Shown: positions 34,386 to 52,335 of the stretch, piece by piece
Layout of the letters: each line of letters begins with the position of its first letter
Position numbering within the stretch: the stretch's first letter is position 1
Assembly (NCBI RefSeq): GCF_000613285.1
Contig: NZ_BAIN01000010.1
Location: 1-64,000, forward strand
Direction: 5' to 3'
Length of the DNA: 64,000 nucleotides
Source: Acetobacter papayae JCM 25143
GTDB lineage: Bacteria > Pseudomonadota > Alphaproteobacteria > Acetobacterales > Acetobacteraceae
The notes under the pieces: model-generated
Database searches by the model: none
Seen by the model: only the letters and a program-made list of their open reading frames with translations
Told to the model about the DNA's origin: nothing
Program-made: the position numbers and the translations under genes

Positions 34386-34811
34386 CTATCCGAACACTCC
34401 TCTCGCCCGACGCGACAGGTCATCCACCTCGTTCTGCTCCCTGCGGGCCTCTTTCTCGCGCTCTTCTTCCTGCCATCGGGCCAGCACAGCCTCGGCAGCT
34501 TTCAGGGCGGCGTTGGCCTGTGTCAGCCCTGCACGCGCCTGATCGGTTACGTGCTGTGCCTCCAGAACCAGCCGGTGAGCACGCTCGATAGCCTCTCGCC
34601 CGGCGGGCAACCAGTCGCGGAAATCTCCCAGACTGGTACGCCCTGCACTCACCTCGTGCTGCTCGTTTTCCAGTTGCTGCCTGCTTTGCGCAAGCCGCAA
34701 CTCGGCAGCACGTTCATGAGCCAGCACGCGCCCCAGTTCGGCACGGGCCTGATCCACCTCCGTCTTGCGCAGGCGGATCAGGGACTGGAGCGCGCGGGCC
34801 CGGGGATTCAT
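34386..34811 (-). CDS. fliJ: Flagellar export chaperone FliJ
   Basis: A 141-residue, almost wholly alpha-helical coiled-coil protein starting [20 protein letters not shown] and rich in Arg, Glu, Ala and Leu. FliJ binds the FliI ring and FlhA and helps deliver substrates to the export gate. A longer in-frame start at 34880 adds only residues that come from the overlapping fliI sequence. It follows fliI in the standard order. Sequence conservation is low for this family, so synteny is important. Confidence 0.83.
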
Positions 34812-36266
34812 CCAGCACCTCAGCCACAGACAGCGCACCACGCAAAGCATCAAAACTTTCCGCCAGCGTTGCCTTTTCACCCCGCTGCTGCTTCAGCACG
34901 TTTTCAATCGCGGGCGCGACACGAATGGCCCTGTCCACCTGCGGATCATTGCCGGGGCGATAGGCGCCAAGGCGCACCATGTCCTGCATTTCTTCCCAAG
35001 TCGAAAGATCGCCCCGCGCTTCCTGCACCAGCGTATTTTCTTCCGGCGCGTTGCAGCCCGGCACAGTACGAGAAAGCGAGCGCAGCACGTTAATGGCCGG
35101 ATAACGCCCTGATTCCGCAATCCGGCGTTCCATCACCACATGCCCGTCGAGAATACCGCGCACGGCATCGGCCACAGGCTCGTTATGGTCATCCCCTTCC
35201 ACCAGAACGGAGAACATGGCAGTCATCTGCCGGCCTTACCCTCTGCATCCATCAGTCCGGGGCCTGCGCGTTCGAGCAGTCTGGGCAGTTCTGCGAACAC
35301 GCTGGGTGGATACCCACGGGTAGCCGGCGGCTCCCCTGAGGACAGGCCAATTTCGCGCAGAGCCTGACAGAAGCGGGTTACGCTATCCATCAGCATCAGC
35401 ACGGACTTGCCCTGATCACGGAAATACTCCGCCGCCGCCATAGCCGCATAAGCGGCCTCTCGCCGCATCAGGGGCGAGGTATCGGACGTGGCCACAACAA
35501 CAACGGACTTAGCCAGACCTTCCGGCCCCAGATCGTCCTCGACAAATTCGCGCACTTCGCGCCCGCGTTCACCCACAAGGGCAATAACCGCCACATCGCA
35601 CGCCGTGTTGCGCGCGAGCATGCCCATGAGCGTGGATTTACCAACACCAGAGCCTGCAAACAGGCCCAGACGTTGCCCCTCGCGGCAGGTAGCAAACAGG
35701 TTCAGCGCCCGCACGCCCAGATCGATCCTCGGCCCAAGGCGCGCGCGCATGGCGGCTTCCGGCGGAGGAGCATGGAGTTTCTGCACCACTCCACCGGGGG
35801 TAAGCGGCCCTTTGCCATCCATGGGGCGACCCATGGGATCAATCACGCGGCCTTTCCAGGATTCATTAACCAGCAGGGTGCCCCCTGCCCTCCGCCGCCG
35901 TTCCTCTGGGCCAAACATCTTGAACGAAGCCCGGCACCCCGAGCCAATGCCTTCGAGCGAACCAAACGGCATGGCGATAGCAATATCGCCCTGAAACGCC
36001 ACAATTTCAGCTTCGGTCTCGCGCCCATCCAGCCCAAGCACCCGCACGCGGTCGCCCACGCCGGTAAAATCACGCAGGCCGCTCAGCGAAATGGAAAGCC
36101 CGGAAAGCCCCGTAACACGACCTTCCAGCACCCCGATGGGTACTTCGTCATGCTGTTGCCCCACCGCACGGCGGATGGCTTCAAACACATCGGGCACGGC
36201 GGTTGCCTGAGCGGCTGCATCCTGCTGCGGCTCGGCACCTTCGCCCTTGATTGCGTCAGGCCCCAT
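34714..36266 (-). CDS. fliI: Flagellum-specific export ATPase FliI (frame break)
   Basis: The hexameric ATPase of the flagellar type III export apparatus. The Walker A region reads [40 protein letters not shown] and [20 protein letters not shown] (Walker B) follow, and [20 protein letters not shown] is diagnostic. At 35230-35231 a GGG run reads GG on the coding strand; restoring it joins AEGKAG to [18 protein letters not shown]. The frame then runs to 34714, overlapping fliJ by 98 bases, which is unlikely. One more missing G near 34812 would make a stop overlapping the fliJ ATG (ATGA) and a normal C-terminus. Expected true end is therefore about 34808. Confidence 0.93.
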
Positions 36267-36306
36267 TAAAGCCGCACCGGAACAGATACACCCACTCGCC
36301 TATACA

Positions 36307-38061
36307 TTAGAACAGGGCAGAGTAGAGGCTGCTCGAACCGCTGGACGAACTGCTGACATCAAACAGTGCAGCAATGCCTTCACTGCTGTTGCTACCGCCG
36401 AACAGATCCATCGTGCTCAGCGCATCGTCAGAAGACTGTGGGTTAACCTGCAGCATCGCCAGATACTGCTCGGCATATTTCTTGATCCCATCAGCTGTTT
36501 TAAACTGCGAGAAATCAACCTTGCCGGTCAAAATCTGCACCTGCTGGCTGTAATCAAGTGCACCGATCTGGTCCGGGTCGTAACCCAGAACCGTTTCCAC
36601 AACCTTGGTCAGCGTTGCATCCGACATAAGCTGGGTCAGCGAGGTCACGCCACTGATCTTGCGGGTAAAATACAGCGCATTACCCACACCATCCTTCTGA
36701 TTGGCCTTGCTCTGCTCGTATTGAGTCTGCTCGAAATCATCCACCAGCGTAGACATATCCACACCATCGTAGCTGGTGGTGGTGCTGCTATTGCTGGTGA
36801 GAGTAGATTCCGTGGCTTTCGTCGTCATGGACAGAGTGGGAGAGTCCAGATTGACCGAATAGGTCACGCCACCCATGGTCGCTGTCAGGGCCGGAATCTT
36901 GTCCGTGGACATTCCGTTAACCTGCGACACACTGCCCGTGCTGTTAAAGGAAACCGTATAAACGGATGCGCTGGTAACCGACGTTGAATCATACGGGTTA
37001 ACCAGCGACACGCTCCAGGTGGACGTGCCTGTCTGCGTCCATTTAACCGACATGTAGTTGCGTACAGAAGCCGGAATGCTGTCGCTATCATCCAGTGCCT
37101 GATCAGGATCAAGCGGCGAAGAAAGATAGGACTGGCCCGTACCCTTGGTCGTACCCAGAACAACCGAACTCATGGTGAGCGACGTGCCCGATCCGCTCAG
37201 GCTATCCGCCTGCGACGTGCTGGTTGTCTGCGTATCGCTTGTAGCCATGACCGTACCGCTGTCGGTGCTATTGACCGTGCCCAGAACCAGCTTGATGTTC
37301 TGCGATGTACCGTCGCTATCCGTCAGCGTAACGGGAATGAAGGCGGTAGAGCCGTCATCCGATGACGTGACAATGCTTTCGCCCGAAATCGCGTTGGAAA
37401 CAGATGCAATGGAACCATCGGTATTGAAGGTAACGCTGTAGCTGTTGTTCGCAACCGCGCCATCGCCATCCGCATCATAGGCGCTGACAGTCCATGTCAG
37501 GGGGTCGCTGCTACTGCGGGTCCACTGAAGTGCCACATTCGTGGCATTACCCGATGAATCATACGTGGTCACACCAGCCGTCGTGTAGCTGTCCTGGCTG
37601 CTGGTAGAGGAAGGCAGCGTAGCTGTCAGGGTGAGCTGGGTTGTTTCCGTCGGGGTTGAAGCGACACTGACCTTGCTATCATCCGTTGTGAAAGGCGAAA
37701 CCGTGGAAACGCCATCATGCTCGCTCCACACAGCAAAGGCCTTGGCAAAGGCCTGCCAGCTTGCATTGCTGGATTTGGATGCCAGCGAGGTGGAGGAAGA
37801 CGGGTCCTGCGTGAGCAGATCCTTGATGATTGCTGTCTGGCCCGAGAGCGAACTGAGGCCGTAAGCCCCCAGCACAACCTGCAGAACCGAATAATTTTTC
37901 AGCAGCCCATCGACTGTCGTAATCGACCCCGCATCCTTCTCGAAGGTTGCGACCTCGTTAGCCGTAACGGAATCAGTCTTGGCGTAGTTCTGCGCGGCCG
38001 TGGTCTCGTCCTTCTGGGCGACGAGATAACTCGTAATGGGGGAGACAGTGCTGATGGCCAT
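36307..38061 (-). CDS. DUF1217 flagellar protein with inserted FlgE-type hook modules
   Basis: A 584-residue protein. Residues 1 to about 130 (VATFEKDAGSITTVDGLLKN, VLGAYGLSSLSGQTAIIKDL) and about 430-560 (LVDDFEQTQYEQSKANQKDG, ALYFTRKISGVTSLTQLMSD, TLTKVVETVLGYDPDQIGAL) are the two halves of a DUF1217 domain, found in alphaproteobacterial flagellar loci. Between them lie about 300 residues resembling the middle of FlgE: TTYDSSGNATNVALQWTRSS and WTVSAYDADGDGAVANNSYS, then VKWTQTGTSTWSVSLVNPYD. The FlgE gene here has the same two blocks in the same order. A full CtrA box lies 84 bases upstream. The gene is unbroken and Ser/Thr-rich. The role is unknown; a hook-like or hook-associated component is inferred. 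Confidence 0.8.
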   Translation of the reverse strand: MAISTVSPITSYLVAQKDETTAAQNYAKTDSVTANEVATFEKDAGSITTVDGLLKNYSVLQVVLGAYGLSSLSGQTAIIKDLLTQDPSSSTSLASKSSNASWQAFAKAFAVWSEHDGVSTVSPFTTDDSKVSVASTPTETTQLTLTATLPSSTSSQDSYTTAGVTTYDSSGNATNVALQWTRSSSDPLTWTVSAYDADGDGAVANNSYSVTFNTDGSIASVSNAISGESIVTSSDDGSTAFIPVTLTDSDGTSQNIKLVLGTVNSTDSGTVMATSDTQTTSTSQADSLSGSGTSLTMSSVVLGTTKGTGQSYLSSPLDPDQALDDSDSIPASVRNYMSVKWTQTGTSTWSVSLVNPYDSTSVTSASVYTVSFNSTGSVSQVNGMSTDKIPALTATMGGVTYSVNLDSPTLSMTTKATESTLTSNSSTTTSYDGVDMSTLVDDFEQTQYEQSKANQKDGVGNALYFTRKISGVTSLTQLMSDATLTKVVETVLGYDPDQIGALDYSQQVQILTGKVDFSQFKTADGIKKYAEQYLAMLQVNPQSSDDALSTMDLFGGSNSSEGIAALFDVSSSSSGSSSLYSALF

Positions 38062-38144
38062 CCATCCAATCCTTTATCCCTGACCGCGACCACAGGCTTA
38101 ACGCCCAGAGGCTGCTTACCCTTATGGCGACTAACATAGGCTGG

Positions 38145-38159
38145 TTAACAAGAGGTTAA
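38145..38159 (-). promoter_or_regulatory. Full CtrA-type binding site TTAA-N7-TTAA
   Basis: TTAACAAGAGGTTAA matches the canonical alphaproteobacterial CtrA box (TTAA, seven bases, TTAA). It lies 84 bases upstream of the DUF1217/hook-domain gene, in the gap after flhF. It is the only full match I found in an intergenic region of this window. Confidence 0.6.
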
Positions 38160-38232
38160 GCGGATCGTCTCCACCCCCTGCCTGATCACGGAAAATCACA
38201 TGCTGGAAAAACGAGGCTACCCGAATGGTATT

Positions 38233-39120
38233 CTAGGCGGGCACAACCATGAGCCGGCGCGCCAGCAAGGCGGCATCGCAACGAGTCGCTCCACCCCGCA
38301 CGGAAGATGAATACCCGGCATAAGTCAGCGCCAGACCACAGGCGGCAGCCGTAATAATACTGCCAATGCGCCCAACCTGATCGAGCTTGGTAGCAATCAT
38401 CCGCTCCGCACCCAGTTGCCCGTAAGCGGCGGCTGTATCGGCCGCCTCCTCCGCATCCATGCCGGCAGGCAACACCACAACAGGTGAAGCACCGGTCTGC
38501 CCGAGCACCTCAGCCACAACGGCAAGACCACCGGGGGCGTAAACACCCGCTTCGGGCATATCAAGCAGCACTGGCTGCGAGGCCTCCTTGCGCGCCATGA
38601 CGGCCTGCACCGCTTCGATATTCGCGGCACGGAACACTGGCACACCGTAAGGCTTGAGCCATGCTGTCAACTGCGCAGCGCCCTCCGGTTCGGCATCACA
38701 CGCAATGACAAGCGGGGCGGCATCCACATGGCGTTCGCGCAGAACGTGAGCAACGGCCATTCGGGCCAATGCCAGTGTCTGCCCACCACCTGAAGGGCCA
38801 CAAAAAGCCAGAGGGGTAGTCTTTTCCAGCGCAAGCGGCGCGAAGGCCAGCAACCGCCCAAGCGCGCCCGACAGTTCTCCCTCCGACAAAGCTTCTGCCA
38901 GCGGGACTGGCACAGAATGCCATGCCAGCACATCAGGCAGGGTCATCCCACTAGGGACGGAAGAAGGCTGCCGCGCGCTCACCCAATCCGGCACAGCGGC
39001 AGCGCTATCGGTCTCGCGCCCGGTATCCCTTACACGGGTTTTACGTCGGCCTATGCCCGCCTTGCGGGTGCGCTGACGCCCCTGCACAAGCTCGGCACGC
39101 GGCAAAACCTTATCCATCAT
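38233..39120 (-). CDS. flhF: Degenerate FlhF-like SRP-family GTPase
   Basis: A 295-residue protein directly after flhA, the usual flhF position. The N-terminal basic linker and LAWHSVPVPLAEAL helix match FlhF, and the NG-domain order is kept: LAFCGPSGGGQTLALARMAV (P-loop), CDAEPEGAAQL, LLDMPEAG and ATKLDQVGRIGSI (G4). Key residues differ. The Walker A Lys is Gln (GGGQT instead of GVGKT), G3 DTAG reads DMPE, and the closing GQxVPDD motif is absent. GTP binding and hydrolysis are therefore doubtful. FlhF normally sets flagellar number and polar position. No frame break is seen, so degeneration appears genuine. Confidence 0.75.
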   Translation of the reverse strand: MMDKVLPRAELVQGRQRTRKAGIGRRKTRVRDTGRETDSAAAVPDWVSARQPSSVPSGMTLPDVLAWHSVPVPLAEALSEGELSGALGRLLAFAPLALEKTTPLAFCGPSGGGQTLALARMAVAHVLRERHVDAAPLVIACDAEPEGAAQLTAWLKPYGVPVFRAANIEAVQAVMARKEASQPVLLDMPEAGVYAPGGLAVVAEVLGQTGASPVVVLPAGMDAEEAADTAAAYGQLGAERMIATKLDQVGRIGSIITAAACGLALTYAGYSSSVRGGATRCDAALLARRLMVVPA

Positions 39121-44073: not shown

Positions 44074-44281
44074 GCAGCTTCCTTACAGCATTCAGGCCGC
44101 CAGAGCCAGAAAGACGGCATGCCATAATAATTTCATCATCCCGAGCGCCGTATCCGGCAGAAACCGATCTGGCGCATGGACAACTAGCCATTGAATGTCT
44201 GCGCCATGCCGAGTATCTTAACAAAGCCGTGGCCCTGATGAAAACGGCTGTGGTCAGCAATGCTAAAAGGTGAGCAGTTCT

Positions 44282-45488
44282 ATGAGGAATCGCCTCAAGG
44301 CGAACATTGGCCCCCACAAGCGCGCCTGCTCTCCCACTCAGGGTTTTACTGCATGCCGCTGGCTTCATGTCAGATCAAAACAGGCTTTGTCCGCGCTGGT
44401 AGCGGCACTTTTCCTGACTGCTACACTCCCCCCAGCCCCAGCCCGAGCCGCCATTGTCCGTATCAAGGACATTGTCGATTATGAAGGCGTGCGAGACAAC
44501 CAACTCGTCGGATATGGTCTGGTAGTCGGCCTGAACGGCTCGGGCGATCGTCTGACCAATACGATCTTCACCCGCGAAACGCTTATCGCATGCTCAACCG
44601 TCTGGGCGTTAACATCCGCGACCGGCAGATCCAGTTGCAGACCCATGACGTGGCCGCCGTGATGGTAACGGCGACACTCCCCCCCTTCTCGCATGGGGGT
44701 GGGCATATTGACGTCACCGTCTCCGCCGCGGGCGATGCCCGCGACCTGACGGGCGGCACGCTGCTGGTTACCCCCCTGCAGGCAGCCGATGGTGAAGTCT
44801 ATGCCGTGGCGCAGGGCTCACTTGTCACTAACGCGTTTTCAGCGGCAGGGGCCGGGGCCAGCGTCTCGCAGAACATCCCCACCAGCGGCCATATCGCCAA
44901 TGGTGCGGTGGTGGAACGTGAAGTGCCAGTCTCGCTCGGTTCGGGCGGGCTTATCCATCTCTCGCTCCGCAACCCCAATTTCACAACCGCGACCCGTATT
45001 GTGGAGGCTATCAACCGCTCCATTGCCCGCAACATGGCCCGCGTTGAAGACCCCCGCACCATCGCCATCAACCTGTCCGGTCGTGATCCAGCCCAAACCC
45101 TGTTCCGCATTGGCGATCTGACGGTCGAGCCCGATACCATGGCCAAGGTGATCGTGGATGAAGCCAGCGGCACCATCGTCATGGGTGATAATGTGCGTAT
45201 CAGCACGGTGGCCATCGCCCAGGGCAACCTCACGATCCAGATTACGGAAACGCCGCAGGCTTCCCAGCCGGGGCCGTTCTCCAACGGCACCACCGCCATT
45301 CTGCCGCGCACACAGATCAACGCCAGCACGGGCAGTTCGCAGCGGCTGGGTATCCTGCGTGAAGGGCCTACGCTGGCCAGTCTGGTTTCGGGCATGAACG
45401 CCCTTGGCATGGGCCCGCGCGACATGATCAGCATTCTGCAGGCCATCAAGCTGACGGCGCGCTGCAGGCCGACCTTGAGGTGAGGTAA
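44282..45488 (+). CDS. flgI: Flagellar P-ring protein FlgI (two frame breaks)
   Basis: Periplasmic P-ring subunit. The repaired length is about 402 residues. After a long basic N-region, a signal peptide ([21 protein letters not shown] region) precedes [20 protein letters not shown] and [15 protein letters not shown]. Later come [36 protein letters not shown] and [20 protein letters not shown], all diagnostic. At 44588 GG reads G (true [11 protein letters not shown]), and at 45450 GG reads G (true [15 protein letters not shown], stop at 45486-45488). ATG 44282 is preceded by AAAGGTGAG. It begins a plus-strand unit with flgJ and flgN. Confidence 0.93.
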
Positions 45489-50473: not shown

Positions 50474-52171
50474 TTACTGGATCATTGCGATCGTTGCCTG
50501 AAGCATCGTGTTGGCCGACGTCACCACCTTGGTGTTAGCCGTGTAAGCTTCCTGCGCCACGATCATGGAGGACAGATCTTTCGTCAGATCGGTTGTTGAG
50601 GATTCAACATAACCGACCGAAAGCGTGCCCGTGCCATTTTCGCCAGAAACACCAATATTCGCATTGCCTGAAGACGTTGTGGCCACATAAGCCTGCCCGT
50701 CCACAGCTTCCAGACCGTTCACATTGGCAAAGTTAGCCAGCGCGATCTTGCCAATCAGCTGCGTGCCGGTGCTGAACTGCGCCATGACGGAACCATCGCT
50801 GGTGATTTCCGCACCTTCATAGGTGCCGGTGGAAATGCTGTCGCTGGTAATCGCGGTGGTGTCGGTATAGGGCGAAGAACTACCGAGTTTGACCGAGCTG
50901 GAGGTCAGGTTCATCGTCTGGGTTGTGCCACTGGAATCCGTAAAGGAGATGCTGCCAGTGGTGGAGCCATTGATGGTGTCGATGGAGCCATCGGACTTGA
51001 ACGTCACCTGAGCCGTGGTCGAGTCAGACGTGGAGGTTGAATACGGGTCCACCAGCTTGACGGTCCAGGTCTGTTCGTCGTTCACGGTGGAGGCTGTCGT
51101 CGTATTCTTGGTCCACAGGGCCGAAACTGTGCTGCCGTCAGACAGTGTCAGCGGCGTGGTCATGTAGGTGTCGTCCGTGCCGGTTTCCGCAGCAATATTG
51201 ACCGCACCGCTCGTGGAATCCATGGTCAGGGTATTGCCGGTGCCCGCAACCAGAGTGCTACCCTGCGACGTACTGGCCGTGCCGCTGCTCGAAGTCGCAA
51301 CCACTGTACCGCTGGTGGAACCAATGCTCCCCAGATCAAGCTTGATGGTCTGGGCCACGCCGTTATACGTCGCGGTGATAGGAATTTCAGCCGAGGTGCC
51401 GGTCGTATTGGCCACAACCGAACCGGTTGCATCCGTAACCGACGTCATGGCACCAGTGCTGCTGTCGAAGGTGACGATGTAGGGCGAAGGCGATGCATTG
51501 CTGATCGCGCCGCTACCATCGGCATCATAAGCCTGCACAGTCCATTTGGAGCTATCAGACGTGCTCTGCGTCCATACCAGACCGATCTGATGCGCCGTGC
51601 CCGTGGAATCGTAAACGGTGGTCGGAGCCGTGGTGTAGGTCTGATCCGTGCCCGTTGACGTACCCACCGTGGAGGTTGACGTCAGGGTCGTGGTTTCTGT
51701 CGGCTTGAACGTCACGTTGGAAACGTTGAGCTGCGTCAGCGTTGTGCCAAGCGTGCCGGTGGACTGATCCACCATATAGCCTTCAAGGTAATACCCACTG
51801 GTGTTGACCAGATAACCGGACTTGTCCTCATACACTTCGCCGTTGCGGGTGTAGTAGGTCTGGCCGCTGCTCGTTCCCTTGGAAACGACAAAGAGCCCGT
51901 CGCCCGAAATCGAGGTCGCCAGCGCATCGGTGCTGGTGGAGGACGTCCCCTGGTTATCCACGTGCTGGATGGTCAGGGCAGCGACAGAATCGGAAACATC
52001 GGCCGAGGCGCTGTTACCGCCCGCACCCGCCACAAAGTCCTGAAAGGCCGTTGTGGTCGCCTTGTAGCCAACGGTCTGGCTATTGGCGATGTTATTACTG
52101 AGATTGGTAAATGCGGTCGACTGCGCGTTAATACCGCTTACGGCCGTTGAAAGGGCATTGAAAACCGACAT
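50474..52171 (-). CDS. flgE: Flagellar hook protein FlgE
   Basis: A 565-residue hook subunit. The N-terminus MSVFNALSTAVSGINAQSTA and NLSNNIANSQTVGYKATTTA, and the C-terminus YVESSTTDLTKDLSSMIVAQ and EAYTANTKVVTSANTMLQAT, are the axial motifs. The central part is enlarged and Ser/Thr-rich, with two hook-type modules (TTVYDSTGTAHQIGLVWTQS with WTVQAYDADG; VSALWTKN with WTVKLVDPYS). The same pair of modules occurs in the DUF1217 protein at 36307-38061. A longer frame to 52315 exists, but AGGGACAGCTC before 52171 and the family start support the shorter form. Confidence 0.95.
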   Translation of the reverse strand: MSVFNALSTAVSGINAQSTAFTNLSNNIANSQTVGYKATTTAFQDFVAGAGGNSASADVSDSVAALTIQHVDNQGTSSTSTDALATSISGDGLFVVSKGTSSGQTYYTRNGEVYEDKSGYLVNTSGYYLEGYMVDQSTGTLGTTLTQLNVSNVTFKPTETTTLTSTSTVGTSTGTDQTYTTAPTTVYDSTGTAHQIGLVWTQSTSDSSKWTVQAYDADGSGAISNASPSPYIVTFDSSTGAMTSVTDATGSVVANTTGTSAEIPITATYNGVAQTIKLDLGSIGSTSGTVVATSSSGTASTSQGSTLVAGTGNTLTMDSTSGAVNIAAETGTDDTYMTTPLTLSDGSTVSALWTKNTTTASTVNDEQTWTVKLVDPYSTSTSDSTTAQVTFKSDGSIDTINGSTTGSISFTDSSGTTQTMNLTSSSVKLGSSSPYTDTTAITSDSISTGTYEGAEITSDGSVMAQFSTGTQLIGKIALANFANVNGLEAVDGQAYVATTSSGNANIGVSGENGTGTLSVGYVESSTTDLTKDLSSMIVAQEAYTANTKVVTSANTMLQATIAMIQ

Positions 52172-52335
52172 GAGCTGTCCCTGCCTTGCGCGCGCTGCTG
52201 TCCGTCCCGTCCGCTTTTCAGCAGAATGACCGTTTACCCTGCCCCTACCACCCTGCACGGGGAAAGCAGAAACCGGATTCCCGACCACACGAGCATGGAA
52301 TGGCGGCTGAAACATTCCCAGCGCGACACATACTG

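Follow-up and report, generated by a model that had tools for sequence, protein, structure and literature searches.

Results

Organization of the locus

The window, that is the whole stretch of 64 kb analysed here, carries on its minus strand a gene which joins a DUF1217 protein to the outer part of the hook protein FlgE. The gene is followed by fliI, and the flgE gene of the same locus is also found within the window. The following features are of importance.

36307..38061 (-), DUF1217-FlgE_D2 fusion gene, ORF of 584 amino acids (Pfam, AlphaFold2 model)
37678..38061 (-), N-terminal DUF1217 half, residues 1-128, helical (Pfam, alignment, model)
36754..37662 (-), insert derived from the FlgE exterior (D2 and second module), roughly residues 134-436 (Pfam, BLASTP, alignment, tree)
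36442..36753 (-), C-terminal DUF1217 half, residues 437-540, helical (Pfam, model)
36310..36441 (-), C-terminal tail (residues 541-584), in which the pattern LFGG...GI.ALF recurs (alignment; pLDDT mostly <62)
38145..38159 (-), CtrA-type motif TTAACCTCTTGTTAA, starting 98 bp 5′ of the fusion ATG
35223..36266 (-), first part of fliI (export ATPase), beginning 40 bp past the fusion gene, with the remainder (34714-35226) in another frame
50474..52171 (-), the flgE gene of this locus, counted from residue 49 of its listed reading frame (50474-52315)
50801-51640 (-), FlgE residues aligned to the insert (BLASTP)

The fusion reading frame is intact, without a frame break as already stated in the initial annotation, and comprises 584 amino acids when counted from the ATG. 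Pfam detects DUF1217 (PF06748) in two stretches (E = 5.8e-34, 117.8 bits with a cut-off of 22.9) and between them FlgE_D2 (PF07559; 1.7e-7, 32.3 bits with a cut-off of 22.7). When four proteins that carry the insert are aligned with five that lack it, the N-terminal half of the latter is seen to be directly joined to the C-terminal half. The two halves have weak homology to each other (hhalign probability 86.9, p = 4.2e-6, 42 columns) and look like a duplication; the FlgE-type insert would then sit between the repeats. No Sec signal peptide is apparent by eye at the N-terminus.

The insert is homologous to the exterior of FlgE

In BLASTP, residues 158-437 of the fusion are collinear with residues 226-505 of the window FlgE (112 of 292 identities, 38%, E = 2e-30). 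The Smith-Waterman score of insert and window FlgE is 506, compared with a mean of 134.8 (sd 11.9) and a maximum of 184 for 1000 shuffles of the insert, and with 84-116 for FlgK, FlgL, FlgD, FliK and flagellin, which are all Ser/Thr-rich. The shuffles and the low scores of these other proteins rule out a chance similarity of Ser/Thr-rich sequences, and the insert is thus not generic sequence of this kind. With the ends compared by eye, the homology reaches from the junction entering the FlgE D2 domain to the junction leaving it, and the insert includes the second FlgE module which is missing in short FlgEs.

The initial annotation had proposed that the DUF1217 halves flank about 300 residues matching FlgE modules, and Pfam, BLASTP and the structural model agree with this. 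The motifs which it named as shared by both proteins fall inside the BLASTP alignment. Its view that the whole hook exterior with both modules has come to lie on a DUF1217 scaffold is borne out by a homology that spans D2 from junction to junction.

It also considered the protein as a second hook-like component, and here we disagree. The long FlgE homology of the insert would speak for a second hook protein polymerising like FlgE, but those parts of FlgE which form the tube are absent: Pfam finds no Flg_bb_rod, D1 or Flg_bbr_C in the fusion at E <= 1, and the NCBIfam FlgE model marks only residues 132-303 with 51 bits versus a cut-off of 365. Because the polymerisation domains are missing, the fusion is not a second hook protein, and we consider this possibility as extremely unlikely. 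It is better described as an assembly protein of the DUF1217 family that bears an outer domain of the hook type.

Predicted fold

The AlphaFold2 model of the fusion, calculated from an alignment of 62 rows, has a mean pLDDT of 87.6 and a pTM of 0.68. It consists of helices at residues 8-113, strands and one short helix at residues 130-432 and again helices at residues 436-539. With VIA-align the two halves superimpose on 2o8s_A (Z 22.1, 2.9 Å, 220 residues), and the sequence link of the fusion to 2o8s is strong as well (E = 1.8e-35). Residues 137-427 superimpose on the FlgE D2 domain of 6ndt (Z 16.8, 2.0 Å, 145 residues), and the insert matches the FlgEs of Campylobacter, Salmonella, Pseudomonas, Caulobacter and Helicobacter with Z 10.6-13.1. 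Foldseek with the fusion model likewise leads to 6ndt (E = 2.4e-7). The structure model and Foldseek, both suggested in the initial annotation, hence place the insert on FlgE D2; since 19 of the 62 alignment rows are FlgE segments, the D2 fold of the model cannot be taken as evidence separate from the sequence match. A sequence search of solved structures using the insert alone gave no match at E <= 1.

A relative lacking the insert, modelled with a mean pLDDT of 78.4, matches 2o8s with Z 23.1 and, in Foldseek, 4.4e-8. The fold searches with this insert-less core returned no clear second match beyond 2o8s, the next rows being at Z 2.1 and E = 4.1.

Origin of the insert

We compared 15 inserts, that of the window among them, and 30 FlgE exteriors in an unrooted tree (four near-duplicate FlgE rows dropped; the row of Gluconacetobacter takamatsuzukensis is the last part of the insert). 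All inserts fall into one clade with a support of 100/100, which is present in 99% of 200 bootstrap trees. This clade groups with long two-module FlgEs; the window FlgE and two near relatives are placed elsewhere (83/95). Because the inserts form one clade apart from the window FlgE, the window insert is not a copy of it. The tree shows a single origin of the inserts, presumably in one old capture.

Its identity of 38% to the FlgE of the same locus could raise the suspicion that the fusion is a recent copy of the genome's own flgE without a lasting role. Yet the insert clade stands apart from all 30 FlgE rows, which rules out recent copying from the local flgE. Moreover, Gluconacetobacter asukensis, G. 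tumulicola and G. aggeris have a short FlgE without the second module, but their DUF1217 insert contains it. A copy without a role would also not agree with the dN/dS of the insert, which is 0.141 and 0.126 versus A. suratthaniensis and A. peroxydans (0.038-0.085 for the halves). These low values argue that the insert is maintained; the window insert is kept under purifying selection. We therefore give hardly any credence to a recent copy.

The history of the DUF1217 core is less simple. The core tree, from which locus L157 was left out and in which the L128 fragment was replaced by the full protein, requires three changes of the FlgE-type insert, and a single clade of insert-bearing cores is not rejected by the AU test (p = 0.299). 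One gain followed by losses, repeated gain of the same module and transfer between genera cannot be told apart.

Distribution of the insert and other contents of the linker

DUF1217 is found in 193 of the 249 sampled Acetobacteraceae genomes, our own included, and is mostly uninterrupted among the matches listed. Close inspection of 32 genomes with split, partial or weak DUF1217 matches revealed the FlgE-type insert in six genomes, five of them by Pfam (our own, G042, G174, G149, G192) and G085 through its similarity to FlgE. Among 49 named Acetobacteraceae loci, 14 have a FlgE-type insert, seven have repeats of the N-terminal half, one has a tandem arrangement and 27 are without insert (one of these, L157, is cut at a contig end). 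The 14 insert loci belong to Acetobacter suratthaniensis, A. peroxydans, five Asaia and seven Gluconacetobacter. Gluconacetobacter liquefaciens carries the insert, and G. johannae has a DUF1217 protein that lacks it. Thus the architecture recurs in other Acetobacteraceae, where the initial annotation had proposed to look for it, and is not a trait of all DUF1217 proteins. Within the genomes searched, the fusion is limited to a part of the acetic acid bacteria. An unusual variant is the 1014-aa DUF1217 protein of G. takamatsuzukensis (G042, L065:892-3936), which has four tandem FlgE_D2 stretches between its halves.

Other DUF1217 proteins carry other sequences at the same place. The proteins with N-half repeats at the linker (L130, L135 and L137-L141; 715-718 aa) are from A. 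syzygii, A. lambici, A. fabarum, A. lovaniensis, A. okinawensis and an uncultured Acetobacter; each of these seven loci has five copies of the motif LLTQDP, as against a single copy in the two controls. For A. fabarum, transposon mutants of flagellar genes have been described (PMC10269862). An insert of about 340 aa belonging to no known family is present in seven genomes of four genera (L075, L076, L077, L078, L079, L080 and L083). ALTTAQ repeats (PF20080) make up eight stretches in the linker of L068:756-2045 and are visible by eye in that of L081:876-2237; a rough regular expression found no such repeats in two FlgE loci. In the class as a whole DUF1217 is present in 35 of 289 genomes. Six DUF1217 proteins which we fetched from outside the family have 801-928 aa, and among the five of these scanned a single protein, L207:2940-5342 (801 aa, genome G429), contains Flagellin_N at residues 474-545 (8.7e-7, 29.5 bits with a cut-off of 26.6). 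G429 has a FliD_N match too. We also considered whether the other insert types are axial modules. This is not supported: the 340-aa insert, found in seven of 13 genomes searched, and a beta-repeat insert, found in five of eight, matched only DUF1217 proteins in those genomes, and scanning five members gave no Pfam family above cut-off. That the beta repeats are flagellin hook-IN motifs was not borne out either. Together, these contents show that the DUF1217 linker is a tolerant site which holds different domains in other genera.

Genomic context

Upstream of the fusion gene lies TTAACCTCTTGTTAA, the only instance in the 64 kb window of TTAA-N7-TTAA, which we take to be the CtrA-type consensus. 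The CtrA-type site ascribed to the gene in the initial annotation is hence real as a motif, and is a predicted site. A. suratthaniensis and A. peroxydans have the identical sequence, with its start likewise 98-99 bp before the gene; the remaining 12 of the 14 insert loci lack it. Over all 49 loci, the consensus occurs within 250 bp upstream of the DUF1217 gene in ten, the two insert loci among them. A sigma-70 promoter scan of positions 36200-38300 found none.

The match to fliI begins 41-270 bp downstream of DUF1217 in 30 of the 49 named loci. In the window, fliI (34714-36266) is split into open frames of 358 and 173 codons, where A. suratthaniensis (L115) has one frame of 492 codons; the split may be an error of the draft assembly. 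Similarly, flgI (44270-45483) is represented by two overlapping reading frames in different frames, possibly also an assembly error. Different surroundings are found elsewhere. The order flagellin-flaF-flbT-DUF1217 is present on plasmids of Cereibacter sphaeroides and Salipiger and, with one extra gene, in Azospirillum, and Sulfitobacter has flaF-flbT-DUF1217. For Brucella, PMC7410920 lists a DUF1217 gene between motA and flgF-fliI. In L163, flagellin is beside the DUF1217 gene, with a weak FliK match in addition. On the other hand, 18 of the 49 loci (L142, L144-L154, L156-L160 and L162) have in the DNA examined no nearby match to 21 window proteins, nearly all of them flagellar or chemotactic. 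Eight of these 18 have the CtrA-type motif upstream of DUF1217, as would be expected if an isolated gene needs its own flagellar-type control.

Amino acid composition

With the insert disregarded, the DUF1217 core of the window protein contains 24.6% Ser+Thr, 0.4% Arg and no Cys. Its arginine content is near that of the window FlgE, FlgK, FlgL, FlgD, FliK and flagellin (0-1.1%); the cytosolic and membrane proteins which we compared have 4.3-9.5%. Low arginine fails, however, as a general mark of export. Two rod proteins of the window that are exported, FlgG and FlgF, contain 4.7% and 6.4% Arg, and the DUF1217 protein of C. sphaeroides, with 7.6%, is nearer to the 11.1% of FlaF and the 11.9% of FlbT of this organism than to the 1.1% of its flagellin.

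Occurrence of FliD and DUF1217

Flg_bbr_C is present in 209 of the 249 Acetobacteraceae genomes, and 192 of these have DUF1217. FliD occurs in none of the 192 but in seven of the 17 Flg_bbr_C genomes without DUF1217 (G053, G068, G140, G179, G187, G221 and G224); the remaining ten, seven of which are less than 90% complete, have neither. The Fisher test gives p = 6.2e-9, with counts that are not independent by descent. The seven FliD genomes come from three genera (the genus code of G221 is shared with DUF1217-positive genomes), and six of them have weaker rod/hook matches, with best E values of 2.0e-11 to 3.3e-15; a few DUF1217 genomes have equally weak ones. The few genera and the weak rod/hook matches make replacement of the whole flagellum a simpler cause of the pattern. 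At the class level the association is weak, since FliD is also present in three of the 35 DUF1217 genomes (p = 0.049), and the control genome of Caulobacter vibrioides matches neither family. The genome of the window has no FliD_N match. As for published genomes, FliD is missing in Phaeobacter according to PMC12363192 and in Rhizobiaceae according to PMC6913195; in Brucella, a genus with a DUF1217 protein, PMC8781033 lists a FliD gene of B. abortus.

A possible link to CP1

In the open-licence literature searched, DUF1217 has no assigned function and appears in tables only, one entry adding "similar to FlgF". The DUF1217-FlgE_D2 fusion was not found described there. PMC12363192 describes CP1 as a conserved protein whose gene belongs to a fliC-flaF-flbT-CP1 cluster; in C. 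sphaeroides this cluster lies on a 124-kb plasmid. On NZ_CP030273.1 (124,316 bp) of this organism, DUF1217 is the fourth gene, after flagellin-flaF-flbT. This same order suggests that CP1 of Rhodobacterales is DUF1217. Speaking against it, the paper reports CP1-4 to be absent outside the fla1 clusters of Rhodobacterales, and Agrobacterium, which is included in that comparison, has a DUF1217 protein, unless the homology is too distant for the comparison made in the paper.

If CP1 is DUF1217, the family gains a published mutant phenotype. According to the same paper, loss of CP1 renders Phaeobacter non-motile, and the defect is relieved by complementation; the mutant exports the majority of its flagellar proteins, FliC among them, no flagella are seen and some cells show an odd polar structure. 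The exoproteome of Phaeobacter contained none of the CPs, and the authors suggest that these are chaperones or prevent premature assembly.

Discussion

The D2 exterior is that face of FlgE which is shown to the outside of the hook. Its presence on a DUF1217 protein suggests the outside of the growing flagellum as the place of work, and a late assembly role of DUF1217 is likely. We lean towards the explanation that DUF1217 is a late-acting exported component of the FliD-less alphaproteobacterial flagellum, with the FlgE module serving as a hook-like surface. The DUF1217 protein would leave the cell via the flagellar export channel and might work at the boundary of hook and filament or at the tip of the growing flagellum. 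The two helical halves would do the conserved job while the linker points outwards. The FlgE-type module would offer a hook-like surface next to or on the hook and thereby aid docking, packing or staying put. We favour export because an outward domain of FlgE would be odd in the cytoplasm and because varied inserts are found at one site. The low arginine content of the core and the Flagellin_N domain on one DUF1217 protein are further features resembling exported proteins. Against this explanation stand the absence of all CPs from the exoproteome in PMC12363192, the arginine-rich DUF1217 of C. sphaeroides and the 18 of 49 loci without flagellar neighbours.

Alternatively, DUF1217 could be a cytoplasmic export or assembly chaperone, with the insert as a mimic of the hook protein, to which the partners of the latter bind in the cytoplasm. 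The missing CPs of the exoproteome would fit to this, as would a gene that adjoins fliI here and flaF-flbT elsewhere, and a protein without apparent Sec signal peptide; the 7.6% arginine in C. sphaeroides speaks either for such a chaperone or for a lineage-specific drift. But the window insert and core are in composition close to exported filament and hook proteins, the insert is just the face of FlgE which is turned to the hook outside, and one DUF1217 protein carries a Flagellin_N domain. A chaperone appears to us somewhat unlikely. A different possibility is that DUF1217 replaces the FliD filament cap and that the FlgE-type module is the outer plate of this cap. Here the CP1 mutant, which according to PMC12363192 exports FliC and shows no flagella, comes into play, along with the missing FliD_N in the genome of the window and the mutual exclusion in the family (FliD in 0 of 192 versus 7 of 17 genomes). 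This exclusion would, however, also result from replacement of the whole flagellum, given three genera of FliD genomes and weaker rod/hook matches in six of the seven. Ten genomes with neither protein, three genomes of the class with both, C. vibrioides with neither and Brucella with DUF1217 and, in PMC8781033, a listed FliD gene do not fit well to a simple exchange, nor does a core fold which clearly matches 2o8s only. A cap is quite unlikely in our view, but as it is a special case of a late-acting exported component, the odds of the two overlap.

Returning to the late-acting exported component, it can be stated more boldly. In alphaproteobacterial flagella without FliD, DUF1217 could fill the vacant place of a cap or tip factor, exported late, needed for polymerisation of flagellin and using its linker as an evolvable outer face. 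We regard this version as rather unlikely. It is this linker that took up hook (FlgE) modules in the acetic acid bacteria and other domains elsewhere. The fusion and, if it holds, the link to CP1 together make the anonymous DUF1217 a tangible candidate for a factor of late assembly.

Among the nearest known proteins is the DUF1217 protein AGR_C_984 of Agrobacterium (2o8s), which both halves of the fusion resemble in fold and profile. Its structure comprises 230 modelled residues out of a chain sequence of 323, whereas the fusion has about 300 FlgE residues between its halves. With CP1 of Phaeobacter inhibens (PGA1_c23640) the connection is through the C. sphaeroides gene in the place of CP1, which is a DUF1217 gene. 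The window fusion gene instead precedes fliI, and DUF1217 is spread far wider than CP1, which is confined to fla1 clusters of Rhodobacterales according to PMC12363192. The FliD cap (PF02465) likewise acts at a late step, and the phenotype of the CP1 mutant is what one would expect for loss of a cap; the fusion, however, has no match to the FliD profiles (FliD_N, FliD_C) in Pfam at E <= 1. FlgE2 of Helicobacter pylori (5npy) has the FlgE exterior in common with the fusion (Z 10.6) but is a hook protein by its PDB title and not a DUF1217 protein. In FlgE itself (PF07559; 6ndt, 1wlg, 5az4) the whole D2 exterior aligns with the insert. D0 and D1 of FlgE are missing from the fusion, and D2 is there on a different scaffold.
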